Source: Formosa sediminum
GTDB lineage: Bacteria > Bacteroidota > Bacteroidia > Flavobacteriales > Flavobacteriaceae
Length of the DNA: 64,000 bases
Assembly: GCF_007197735.1 (NCBI RefSeq)
Contig: NZ_CP041637.1
Span: 3,133,001 to 3,197,000 of the forward strand
Reading direction: 5' to 3'
Shown here: piece by piece, positions 1 to 44,276 of the stretch
Position numbering within the stretch: position 1 is the stretch's first letter
Layout: the number at the start of each line of letters is the position of its first letter
Made by a program: the position numbers and the translations under genes
Notes under the pieces: model-generated
Told to the model about the DNA's origin: nothing
The model's database searches: none
The model's input: the letters and a program-made list of their open reading frames with translations, nothing else

Positions 1-881
1 GCTATACTTTGTCTCGGTAAGTTCTTAATTTGTGTATCAACTTCTTTTAAAACATCATCAATTAAAGCTTTTGATGTGGATACTAAAATCACTTGACTAT
101 CTGCACCATGTTCTGCTTGACTTAATAAATCTGAAGCTACATAACTTGCATTAGCACTATCATCTGCAACTACTAATAATTCACTTGGTCCTGCAGGCAT
201 ATCGATAGCAACGCCGTATTTTGTAGCCAATTGTTTTGCCACAGTAACAAACTGATTTCCTGGTCCAAAAATTTTATAGACTTGAGGGATGTTTTCTGTT
301 CCAAATGTTAATCCGGCAATCGCTTGAATCCCTCCTACTTTAATAATTTTTGAAACGCCACATAAATGAGCAGCAAATAAAATTTCGTTTGCAATTTTAC
401 CAGATGAATTTGGTGGAGAACACAACACTATTTCTTTACATCCCGCAATTTTAGCTGGAATGGCTAACATTAAAACAGTAGAAAACAACGGTGCTGTACC
501 TCCTGGAATATATAATCCAATTTTTTCTATGGCTCGTTTTTCTTGCCAGCAGTTTACTCCAGGCATGGTGCTAACTTGAACTTTTTCTGTTTTTTGAGCC
601 GCATGAAAACGCTCAATATTTTTATATGCAATCGTTATGGCTTCTTTAAGCTGTTCTGATACGTTTGCCTTTGCTTCTTCAATTTCTTGTTCTGTAACAA
701 TATTAGAATCTAAAGTCACCCCATCAAATTGAGTAGTATATTTAGAAATTGCAACATCCCCATTACGCTTAACATCATCAAAAATTTGAGTTACCGTATT
801 TTCTATATCGTTTACGGTTTGTGTTGGGCGTTGCAATATATTTGACCAATCTGATGGATTGGGGTTTTCAATAATGTTCAT
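1..881 (-). CDS. hisD: Histidinol dehydrogenase, C-terminus cut by window edge
   Basis: This gene encodes the enzyme that oxidises L-histidinol to L-histidine in two NAD-dependent steps, the end of histidine synthesis in the cytoplasm. The reading frame runs open from the ATG at 881 to base 1, giving the first 293 of about 430 residues. Family features visible in translation are the PGGTAPLFSTVLM segment, the IFGPGNQFV segment and the DMPAGPSELLV segment around the NAD and substrate sites. It lies 15 bp downstream of hisG on the same strand, so both are read from the his leader promoter. The zinc and active-site residues of the C-terminal part are outside the window. The identity is very secure. 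Confidence 0.96.
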   Translation of the reverse strand, partial: MNIIENPNPSDWSNILQRPTQTVNDIENTVTQIFDDVKRNGDVAISKYTTQFDGVTLDSNIVTEQEIEEAKANVSEQLKEAITIAYKNIERFHAAQKTEKVQVSTMPGVNCWQEKRAIEKIGLYIPGGTAPLFSTVLMLAIPAKIAGCKEIVLCSPPNSSGKIANEILFAAHLCGVSKIIKVGGIQAIAGLTFGTENIPQVYKIFGPGNQFVTVAKQLATKYGVAIDMPAGPSELLVVADDSANASYVASDLLSQAEHGADSQVILVSTSKALIDDVLKEVDTQIKNLPRQSI

Positions 882-896
882 TTTAAATGTCTTTAA

Positions 897-1754
897 TTAT
901 AGAACCATATTATCAATAGGACAAACAAGGATACCTTCTGCGCCAAGTGCTTTAAGTTCATCAATAATTTCCCAAAATTTATTTTTGTCGATTACTGTGT
1001 GAACAGAGCTCCAGCCTTCTTGGGCTAAAGGTAAGACTGTTGGGCTTTTCATCCCTGGTAAAATGGTAATTATTTCTTTTAATTTTTCATTAGGTGCGTT
1101 TAACAACACATATTTAGAACGACGCCCTTTTAGCACAGAATCTATTCTAAATTTAATTGTGTTTAATATCTCTAAATTGTCTTTAGAAATTAATGGAGAT
1201 GATGCTAAAACAGCCTCAGATTTTAGTAAGACTTCAACCTCTTTTAAACCATTTTTAAATAATGTACTTCCGCTAGACACAATATCAACTATAGCATCTG
1301 CAAGCCCAATGTTTGGAGCAATTTCTACCGATCCGTTAATAATATGTAACTGCGCGTTTACGTTATTTTTATCTAAAAATTGTTGCACCGTATTGGGATA
1401 AGACGTTGCAATACGCTTACCTTCTAAATCTTGCATATTATTGTATTTAACAGATTTTGGCACTGCTATAGATACTTTACAAGATGAAAAACCTAATTTT
1501 TGAATAATTTGAATGTCTCCGCCTTTTTCAATTAAAACATTCTCTCCAATAATAGCAGCATCTACAACACCGTCTTTTAGATACTGAGGAATATCTCCAT
1601 TACGTAAATAAAACACCTCTACAGGAAAGTTTTTAGCTGAAGCTTTTAATTGATCTCTTCCATTGTCTATAGATATTCCTATGTCTTTAAGAATTTGCAT
1701 AGACTCGTCGTACAGTCGACCTGATTTTTGAACTGCAATTTTTAGTTTACTCAT
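897..1754 (-). CDS. hisG: ATP phosphoribosyltransferase, long form
   Basis: HisG catalyses the first and controlling step of histidine synthesis, joining ATP and PRPP to form phosphoribosyl-ATP. The protein has 285 residues, the length of the long HisG form, which has a C-terminal regulatory HisG_C domain and needs no HisZ partner. The start (KIAVQKSGRLYDES), the middle (GLADAIVDIVSSGSTL, PRPP site) and the C-terminal stretch ending in GILVCPIDNMVL match the family. It is the first structural gene of the his operon; hisD follows after 15 bp. Expression is probably controlled by the attenuator at 1799-1923 as well as by histidine feedback on the C-terminal domain; the feedback is family knowledge, not visible here. 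Confidence 0.97.
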   Translation of the reverse strand: MSKLKIAVQKSGRLYDESMQILKDIGISIDNGRDQLKASAKNFPVEVFYLRNGDIPQYLKDGVVDAAIIGENVLIEKGGDIQIIQKLGFSSCKVSIAVPKSVKYNNMQDLEGKRIATSYPNTVQQFLDKNNVNAQLHIINGSVEIAPNIGLADAIVDIVSSGSTLFKNGLKEVEVLLKSEAVLASSPLISKDNLEILNTIKFRIDSVLKGRRSKYVLLNAPNEKLKEIITILPGMKSPTVLPLAQEGWSSVHTVIDKNKFWEIIDELKALGAEGILVCPIDNMVL

Positions 1755-1798
1755 TATTTTGGTTAATGTGTTTGAGTAAAATCATTCGGAGAAAATAA

Positions 1799-1829
1799 AA
1801 ACCCCATCTGATTAACTCAAACGGGGTTT
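1799..1829 (-). terminator. his attenuator terminator hairpin
   Basis: Read on the minus strand, AAACCCC pairs with GGGGTTT and the stem continues inward (GTTTGA with TCAGAT, using two G-U pairs), closing a GTTAA loop of five bases, followed by TTTATTTT. The G-U pairs form only in the minus-strand RNA, so the hairpin is built for that strand. It lies between the His-rich leader peptide and hisG and is the terminator arm of an attenuator. Bases 1815-1823 in its 5' arm are complementary to 1873-1881 at the end of the leader peptide, which gives the competing antiterminator. Confidence 0.88.
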
Positions 1830-1875
1830 AAAAATATATTTTTATAAAAATTTATTCAATACACTTTCTGCTCGT

Positions 1876-1923
1876 TTAAGTACAAGTATGAAAATGATGA
1901 TGATGAAATTGAATAAAGTTCAT
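1876..1923 (-). CDS. hisL: his operon leader peptide
   Basis: This 15-codon frame reads MNFIQFHHHHFHTCT and then TAA. Five of the fifteen codons are histidine, four of them consecutive, all CAT. It sits about 120 bp upstream of hisG on the same strand, directly after a promoter-like sequence and before an intrinsic terminator. This is the classic arrangement of a histidine attenuation leader: a ribosome stalled at His codons would leave 1873-1881 free to pair with 1815-1823 and break the terminator. No Shine-Dalgarno sequence is seen, as usual in this phylum. The symbol is by analogy with enterobacterial hisL; there is no sequence homology. Confidence 0.87.
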   Translation of the reverse strand: MNFIQFHHHHFHTCT

Positions 1924-1943: not shown

Positions 1944-1975
1944 CAAATATTCAGAAATTTAAAACACTTATGCAA
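1944..1975 (-). promoter_or_regulatory. Promoter of his operon
   Basis: On the minus strand TTG (1973-1975) is followed after 21 bp by AATATTTG (1944-1951), close to the Bacteroidota -33/-7 consensus TTG and TAnnTTTG, with the first base of the -7 box changed. Transcription would start near 1937, giving about 14 nt before the leader peptide ATG at 1923. Confidence 0.5.
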
Positions 1976-43839: not shown

Positions 43840-43847
43840 GTTTATAT

Positions 43848-44154
43848 AAGTAAATCTATAAGCCGAATCCTGTACTTTTTCTAAAAGAAAAAGCCCTTAT
43901 CATTTATCTGAATGTATTATTACTAATACACTTTAGCTGCCTACCCTCCAGCATCGGACGTGCCGCCCTCAAACATTGGTATACATGGCATTGCACCACA
44001 TAGAGTTTACCCGGTTTCACTACAGCATTACCTGTACATACTTTCTGTTGCACTTTTCCTAATCTCACGACTGGTGGCCATTAACCACTATGTTGCACTA
44101 TGGTGTTCGGACTTTCCTCCATTCTTAATAGAATAGCGATAAGGCGATTTACTT
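43848..44154 (-). ncRNA. rnpB: RNase P RNA
   Basis: The minus strand carries the diagnostic conserved blocks of bacterial RNase P RNA, class A-like: GGAGGAAAGTCCGAACACC near the 5' end, GAAACCGGGTAAACTC and GAGGGCGGCACGTCCGA further down, and ACAGGATTCGGCTTATA at the 3' end. The ends are set by the outer helix P1: AAGTAAATC (44146-44154) with GATTTACTT (43848-43856). The gene is about 307 nt. It ends at the terminator at 43809-43839. The 5' end could be a few bases longer. Confidence 0.95.
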
Positions 44155-44276
44155 GAGCGCAAAAATACAATAATTACTAAGTAATACTATTAAAGTTACT
44201 TTTATTAAATTTCTAAAATTGTTAATAACTCATAGTATTTTTAATCGCCATCTCTTTAAAATATACCCTTAATTTT

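Follow-up and report, generated by a model that had tools for sequence, protein, structure and literature searches.

A histidine leader before hisG in Flavobacteriaceae: a probable ribosome-mediated attenuator whose terminator arm is contested by a third strand

The leader of the his operon of Formosa sediminum is, with high probability, a ribosome-mediated transcription attenuator in which a real third pairing takes part, as judged from comparative sequence analysis and folding models. Ribosome stalling as the signal at this leader, which the preliminary description had proposed from the DNA alone, is very likely, being supported by a conserved and His-specific leader, by covarying pairings and by the folding logic. 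The terminator and the antiterminator stand as they were then described, but that anatomy is incomplete, given that a third strand before hisG (segment 7) competes for the same terminator arm. The window, meaning here the whole stretch of 64,000 nucleotides that was analysed, contains the leader and the first genes of the operon, and the features are collected in Table 1.

The his operon is complete downstream of the leader (hisGDCBHAF-IE), with hisC, hisB, hisH, hisA, hisF and hisIE following hisD on the same strand in the genome (L032). Direct reading of the minus strand finds the 15-codon frame with five His codons as it had been claimed. The terminator hairpin AAACCCCGTTTGA-GTTAA-TCAGATGGGGTTT, at 1829-1799, has a folding energy of -18.1 kcal/mol and is followed by the U-run, which bears out the strong hairpin with T-run attributed to this position. 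The competing pairing inside the 5' arm is likewise exact: ACTTAAACG (1881-1873) and CGTTTGAGT (1823-1815), both in the minus-strand RNA, form 9 bp with one G-U. The G-U pairs of the hairpin itself are, again as described, confined to the minus-strand RNA. The 181-nt stretch folds better than 200/200 of its dinucleotide shuffles (z -3.2).

Table 1. Features of the his leader region, with positions in the window
Feature	Position	Strand	Basis
Predicted -7 promoter element AATATTTG (consensus TAnnTTTG, one mismatch), 20 nt before the leader ATG	1944..1951	minus	
TTG, possible -33 element	1973-1975	minus	
His leader ORF MNFIQFHHHHFHTCT and stop; ATG at 1923-1921, TAA at 1878-1876	1876..1923	minus	sequence reading; conserved His cluster in relatives
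Segment 1 (TTTATTCAAT, leader codons 3-6), partner of segment 4	1908..1917	minus	sequence; 1:4 exchange test
Segment 3 (ACTTAAACG, at the end of the leader ORF), strand of the antiterminator	1873..1881	minus	exchange test, folding
Segment 4 (ATTGAATAAA), partner of segment 1 when the leader is free of ribosomes	1851..1860	minus	exchange test, folding
Segment 5 and loop (AAACCCCGTTTGA + GTTAA), 5' arm of the terminator, for which segments 3, 6 and 7 compete	1812..1829	minus	
Segment 6 (TCAGATGGGGTTT), terminator 3' arm, then U-run to about 1792	1799..1811	minus	
Segment 7 (GATTTTACTCAAAC), third competitor, whose partner is the 5' arm and loop of the terminator; ends 15 nt before the hisG ATG	1770..1783	minus	
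Segment 8 (TGAGTAAA, hisG start), can pair with TTTACTCA of segment 7 (weaker evidence)	1746..1753	minus	
hisG, first gene of the operon (ATG at 1754)	897..1754	minus	TIGR00070, TIGR03455
hisD, truncated by the window end	3..881	minus	

Relatives were surveyed at three levels, where HisG was present in 41 of 59 genomes (relatives search), 107 of 130 (family) and 252 of 296 (phylum), the window's own genome being counted each time. Regions were read for 72 of the 252 phylum genomes with HisG (30 loci returned, 40 fetched, and G039 and G052), and further loci came from the best 80 of 583 relatives in the genome collection. Altogether, 269 regions upstream of hisG were read, of which 259 were distinct after removal of duplicates: 223 of Flavobacteriales type, a set that includes one region from another group of the phylum (L263) and named metagenome bins, and 36 from other orders and classes. 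For the pairing tests 42 of the 259 were dropped (all 36 regions outside the Flavobacteriales-type set, L051, and five in which the scan gave no terminator), leaving 217 regions that are thereby pre-filtered for a leader with at least two clustered His codons and a terminator. From these, 129 dissimilar representatives were taken (6-mer Jaccard below 0.30).

The His codons are kept in relatives, a check that the preliminary description had proposed. With no prior filter, at least three His within seven codons are found before hisG in 218 of the 223 Flavobacteriales-type regions, and at least two clustered His in 222, the remaining region (L051) being a contig that ends 118 nt before hisG. Among the first 41 regions read, 40 had at least three His in seven codons and L028 had two. 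Typical leaders are MTFIQLHHHHFHTCTQAS and MRNQNTHHHFYTCPQAS, and Flavobacterium sp. 7A (L203) is a species with a strong leader. In the 129 representatives, an ATG-started ORF with at least three His in seven codons occurs in 123, versus 1.6 in dinucleotide shuffles, and one with at least four His in 93, versus 0.0. Clusters of other residues stay near or below the shuffled expectation (the most frequent being Phe 18 observed and 21.2 shuffled, Ile 16 and 25.6, Leu 16 and 30.0, Asn 13 and 10.4, Lys 12 and 27.4), the largest excess among the 19 other residues being that of Asn, 2.6. Given that the His clusters are kept in relatives at frequencies far above those of shuffles, a chance origin of the leader is excluded.

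A terminator below -11 kcal/mol was found by scan between leader and hisG in 217 of the 223 regions. The scan was confined to this stretch and misses U-runs that start late (L014, L119, L183 and L195); by eye, a hairpin and U-run can be seen in these four and in L051, that is, in five of the six scan-negative regions. In L038, a terminator-like hairpin and a matching segment 7 lie 140 nt before hisG and the U-run is missing, a hint that segment 7 may be able to outlive termination.

In other orders and classes, an ORF with a His cluster occurs in 32 of 36 regions, and 27 of these ORFs start within 240 nt of hisG; the count comes without a shuffle control, and a small number of the ORFs, long frames in G+C-rich DNA, may be due to chance. 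In L255-L259 (family f17, same class), His-rich leaders end 58-82 nt before hisG and no strong intrinsic terminator was found between the two; regulation there would need another mechanism, such as Rho or translation.

The leader is also preceded by promoter-like sequence. The Bacteroidota -7 element has the consensus TAnnTTTG, with transcription starting 4-5 nt after it (PMC6847099). Of the 129 representatives, 73 have the strict consensus no more than 70 nt from the leader ATG (8.1 in shuffles), and 113 have a relaxed form (TTTG with at least one of T and A) no more than 60 nt from it (25.4 in shuffles); in 50 of these 113 a TTG is found 18-22 nt further upstream. The end of the -7-like element is 15-24 nt from the leader ATG in 58 representatives and 5-11 nt in 26 (e.g., L023 and L024). 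Since the start site is expected 4-5 nt after the element, the leader mRNA of these 26 would be nearly leaderless, according to this prediction.

Along the RNA, segment 1 precedes the His run, segment 3 is the end of the ORF, segment 4 lies in the spacer, segments 5 and 6 are the arms of the terminator, and segment 7 lies before hisG. The pairings were evaluated by an exchange test, in which the pairing energy of the partners of one species is compared with that of partners swapped between species. The antiterminator pairing 3:5 gave -12.95 for own partners and -11.64 for swapped ones (sd 0.16, z -8.1, n=129), and the pairing 1:4 gave -7.24 and -5.61 (sd 0.18, z -8.8, n=129). The strongest signal is that of the terminator 5' arm plus loop (5L) with segment 7, -11.59 versus -8.19 (sd 0.20, z -17.2, n=108). 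As controls, 5L was also paired with 60 nt of sequence on the 5' side of the leader (z +1.5, n=128) and with the initial 60 nt of hisG (z +0.5, n=129), and both pairings were flat. These permutation z values are not probabilities because the 129 representatives still share ancestry, and a set of 82 disjoint pairs, described below, is the fairer test. Taken singly, 61 of the 129 representatives have a 3:5 pairing that beats its own shuffles at p 0.01. With 3:5 covarying and the terminator present in nearly all regions, both of the alternative pairings of the preliminary description are kept in relatives.

The third base of the arm gives a similar picture. When it is C, the opposite base is G in 12 of 12 cases in segment 3, 15 of 15 in segment 6 and 13 of 14 in segment 7; when it is T, the opposite base is A or G in 94 of 100, 103 of 103 and 68 of 69 cases, respectively. 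This pattern fits a single arm contested by three strands and may be taken as support for it, although this base is itself part of the best fit by which segments 3 and 7 were positioned, and the counts are not an independent test.

Folding calculations suggest when the contest would be decided. Before the 3' arm is made, 3:5 has a mean probability of 0.93 when a ribosome sits on the second His codon; the value drops to 0.05 if the ribosome has advanced to the stop codon, and is 0.43 for the ribosome-free leader (n=129). Thus, in silico and before the 3' arm exists, the antiterminator is exclusive with the terminator and set by the position of the ribosome. Once the 3' arm is complete, the equilibrium structure is the terminator in all ribosome states (mean P(5:6) 0.97). 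Given that the terminator wins at equilibrium in every state, the switch must work by timing, while the 3' arm is being made.

From sequence, conservation, covariation and folding, the following steps may be proposed for attenuation. When His-tRNA is plentiful, the ribosome would reach the stop codon of the leader and cover segment 3, the 5:6 terminator would form, and the polymerase would halt before hisG. When His-tRNA is scarce, the ribosome would stall in the His run, 3:5 would pair, the terminator would come too late and the operon would be transcribed. If the leader is left untranslated, 1:4 would pair, segment 3 would be partly locked away, and termination would be favoured.

That the ORF encodes instead a working His-rich small protein, e.g., a metal binder (HHHHFHTC), and is not a sensor, is most improbable. 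The conservation of residues after the His run (TCTQAS and similar) could be read in this way, but the conserved ends of the ORF are at the same time strands of the 1:4 and 3:5 pairings, and the position and the terminator are as in attenuators. Moreover, the window's genus is represented by six loci, four of which (the window, at 1873-1881, L003, L005 and L006) have TAA or TAG where the other two have CAA. The ORF thus ends three codons sooner than in those two, and despite the loss of these codons the antiterminator pairing is, by eye, still kept.

The partner of segment 7 is the loop together with the 3' part of the terminator 5' arm. There is room for it in 108 of the 129 representatives, of which 62 are strong cases and 46 are weaker than -11; in the other 21 no room is left, the terminator itself being 16-28 nt away from the AUG. 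In strong cases the distance from the terminator to the AUG varies from 37 to 118 nt, while the end of the 5L:7 helix lies 12-20 nt from the hisG AUG in 49 of 62 and never under 12. Loops are 3-8 nt long. A longer gap between segment 7 and hisG was seen in L009, L044, L050, L059 and L064, in some of them with an extra small hairpin near the AUG (by eye).

Taken singly, 60 of 108 representatives have a 5L:7 pairing that beats its own shuffles at p 0.01. In the window, 5L:7 has two helical parts, of 8 and 4 bp, on either side of a small internal loop, and its energy of -11.6 kcal/mol is equalled or exceeded by 16% of the downstream regions of other species. As a guard against circularity, segment 7 was anchored on the arm part alone, which could be done for 82 of the 129 representatives, and only then was the loop part counted. 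Of the loop cells, 301 of 410 are paired with segment 7, versus 229 in permutations (sd 7.5, maximum 259 in 1000 permutations), and all five loop positions are paired in 36 of the 82 anchored representatives, with 16 different loop 5-mers. In loop positions 0-5, A-C mismatches number 16 against 36.4 permuted (sd 4.1), and G-U pairs 48 against 57.2 (sd 4.0). Given that A-C is depleted by more than half and G-U by a sixth, the data favour the sense RNA as the molecule in which 5L:7 would act.

For the fairer test, relatives were matched into 82 disjoint pairs, the source being those 164 of the 217 regions with an anchorable segment 7. At 73 differing loop positions, there were 28 compensatory double changes, 5 changes to wobble and 40 positions not kept paired; with partners swapped, a single double change was found versus the 28. 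Where the loop is unchanged between relatives, segment 7 nevertheless differs at 102 of 337 positions, which means that the constraint on 5L:7 is real but loose.

Among other orders, 21 loci have both leader and terminator and 20 have downstream room; of these 20, shuffles are beaten at p 0.01 by 5L:7 in 2 and by 3:5 in 12. Since 5L:7 beats shuffles in 2 of 20 of these loci, segment 7 looks to be mainly a trait of Flavobacteriales.

The role of segment 7 is less clear than its pairing. Given that it is made after the terminator, it can have no effect on the termination of the same transcript, and its position, inside or next to the start region from -20 to +20, points to the translation of hisG. 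A translational role has about an even chance. In read-through RNA, the terminator is ahead of 5L:7 by a median of 4.8 kcal/mol and the mean P(5:7) is 0.04-0.05, so that in the model a kinetic role of segment 7 must overcome the equilibrium advantage of the terminator. The equilibrium folding model does not decide the sign of the effect.

It is possible, if tentative, that segment 7 acts as an anti-sequestrator: free, it would pair with the hisG start (7:8) and block translation, and 5L:7 would free the AUG when segment 5 is not in the terminator, making transcription and translation come on together, a coincidence that we hold equally tentatively. Forcing 5L:7 in place of 5:6 opens the AUG in 31 of the 62 strong cases and closes it in 8, and in place of 3:5 opens it in 30 and closes it in 7; however, the window's own RNA behaves in the opposite way, with an AUG openness of 0.11 under forced 5L:7 versus 0.36. 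With a stalled ribosome, 5L:7 and 3:5 are of equal energy (median difference -0.2). In many species the 5' part of segment 7 is able to pair with the start of hisG; the 7:8 exchange test gives z -4.9 in the 62 strong cases and -0.8 in the 46 weak ones, and a pairing of -9 or lower between the upstream region and the start is found in 26 of 62 strong cases, versus 7 of 49 other genes of the window and 6 of 46 weak cases. Against this, hisG does not begin with ATGAG in 22 of the 62, 7:8 shows in 57 pairs only 10 compensatory changes versus 3 when exchanged, with 28 of 39 not kept, and where loop and hisG start differ, segment 7 tracks the loop at 25 and hisG at 16 of 58 positions. Given that segment 7 tracks the terminator loop more than hisG, sequestration of the start codon by 7:8 was rejected as the whole story. 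The anti-sequestrator is placed a little ahead of a roadblock, in which the 5L:7 helix, 12-20 nt before the AUG, would repress translation until a stalled ribosome removes it through 3:5. This second arrangement is rather unlikely, even though the helix ends at that distance in most strong cases, the terminator itself ends in a similar place, 16-28 nt from the AUG, in the 21 representatives without room, and start regions of F. johnsoniae have lowered structure between -20 and +20 (PMC6847099). Segment 7 stays free as long as 5:6, the favoured state, persists, which means that the roadblock would rarely form at plentiful histidine, and the cases in which forced 5L:7 opens the AUG outnumber those in which it closes it.

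Two further readings concern 5L:7. Attenuator RNAs acting in trans exist elsewhere, as rnTrpL of Sinorhizobium, and here the hairpin loop of the terminated leader RNA could pair with segment 7 of the full-length hisG mRNA. The loop does belong to the covarying part, but it is short, the rest of the pairing needs an opened stem and the cis partner is nearer, which makes action in trans improbable. Still less probable, by a clear step, is that 5L and segment 7, which form an inverted repeat near the gene, are a DNA site for a regulator instead of an RNA helix. The 36 fully paired representatives carry 16 different loop 5-mers with matching partners, the distance between terminator and AUG in strong cases spans the wide range given above, and the unequal depletion of A-C and G-U is not expected of DNA, which would treat both alike; a DNA operator was rejected on this wobble bias and variability.

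A translational role for segment 7 would extend attenuation beyond the terminator. After read-through, segment 7 would compete for the same segment 5 and loop, and would thereby couple the state of the terminator to hisG translation. We infer that the hisG start region could sense the same switch, and that transcripts slipping past an intact terminator would be translated differently from antiterminated ones. For Flavobacteriaceae, this would be one stalled-ribosome decision read in two locks, transcription and translation, with the third strand handing the outcome to an initiation that proceeds without Shine-Dalgarno recognition, a proposal to which we give slightly less than an even chance. 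Both this proposal and the anti-sequestrator were rated lower because of the 102 unmatched changes in segment 7 and the reserve that attaches to its anchoring. If the proposal is true, segment 7 would show how a single RNA arm can be read twice, by RNA polymerase and later by the initiating ribosome, and the compensated 5L:7 pairs make the third strand ready for mutational tests. The leaders collected here are a large set of very probable natural attenuators in bacteria without Shine-Dalgarno pairing, and a direct handle on whether those bacteria couple transcription to translation.

Upstream regions of other amino-acid genes in the same genome were also inspected by eye. Just upstream of trpE (L272, G000:C1, around 274,000), a TTG-started frame with three successive Trp codons is followed by a hairpin and U-run before trpE, and is likely, from its sequence, to be a trp attenuator. 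Upstream of pheA (L273, G000:C1, around 459,700, minus strand), the frame MQNTNFTYFNFFYFFFNRRDEALYV, rich in Phe/Tyr, is followed by a hairpin and U-run just before the gene. Both frames add to the case for the his attenuator; against it, no comparable leader was seen in the region upstream of ilvD, and the two homoserine dehydrogenase loci examined stop short of the gene start.

Searches of family databases give a mixed picture of the relation to known leaders. At the gathering cut-off, the whole window has RNase P as its sole match in Rfam (class A RNA, at 43843-44155 on the minus strand). At a lax threshold, the best of 4227 Rfam families in 1700-2010 is His_leader (33.4 bits, E 0.00069), which is below its cut-off of 49; the preliminary statement that there is no similarity to the enterobacterial leader holds as regards the cut-off, and not as regards His_leader being the best-matching family. 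In 20 further loci (39,684 bases) His_leader had no match at E 0.01, a weak test given that a 33-bit match there would have an E of about 0.09. The T-box model had no match, whether at gathering across the window or, within 1700-2010, up to an E of 10. None of six leaders of relatives (20-25 aa) matched Pfam or NCBIfam up to E 10, and the window's 15 aa are under the search minimum.

Leader-peptide attenuation of his operons is classical: in enterobacteria, a short leader ORF before hisG carries a run of His codons, followed by a terminator and an antiterminator set by the ribosome. The leader described here shares with enterobacterial hisL (Rfam RF00514) the His run before hisG, the terminator and an antiterminator governed by ribosome position. 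It differs in the direct pairing between the terminator arm and the last part of the ORF, and in the extra segment 7, which is not known from E. coli hisL.

For the his genes of the superphylum, the available text of PMC8305728 names attenuation for S. enterica and E. coli only. The leader peptides of hisZ and hisS in Firmicutes (PMC2965389) are a case of His-codon attenuation outside Proteobacteria and Actinobacteria; they concern other genes, and terms in Bacteroid- or Flavobact- are absent from the main text of that paper. In Bacteroides thetaiotaomicron, short ORFs resembling leader peptides have been described in long 5' UTRs (PMC7366714). A SAM-II riboswitch before metA of Sinorhizobium meliloti (PMC9373788) combines in one leader, as is proposed here, a terminator with a separate effect on translation, but it senses a small molecule and sequesters the Shine-Dalgarno sequence, and does not rely on a stalling ribosome. 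A Flavobacterium transcriptome paper of 2021 (PMC9723704) reports, for amino-acid operons, clues to attenuation by leader peptides and, for F. psychrophilum hisG, the same gene and family as here, a 5' element that is structured, conserved in other genera and without an Rfam match. In its main-text section on this element there is neither a leader sequence nor a model of the pairings, and neither covariation nor a third strand is described, and the available text of the open-licence PMC literature yielded neither a pairing model for an attenuator of Bacteroidota nor a third strand. Attenuation at this leader is thus not unheralded, the clues to it and the hisG 5' element being already known in Flavobacterium, and what appears new relative to these sources is the third strand.
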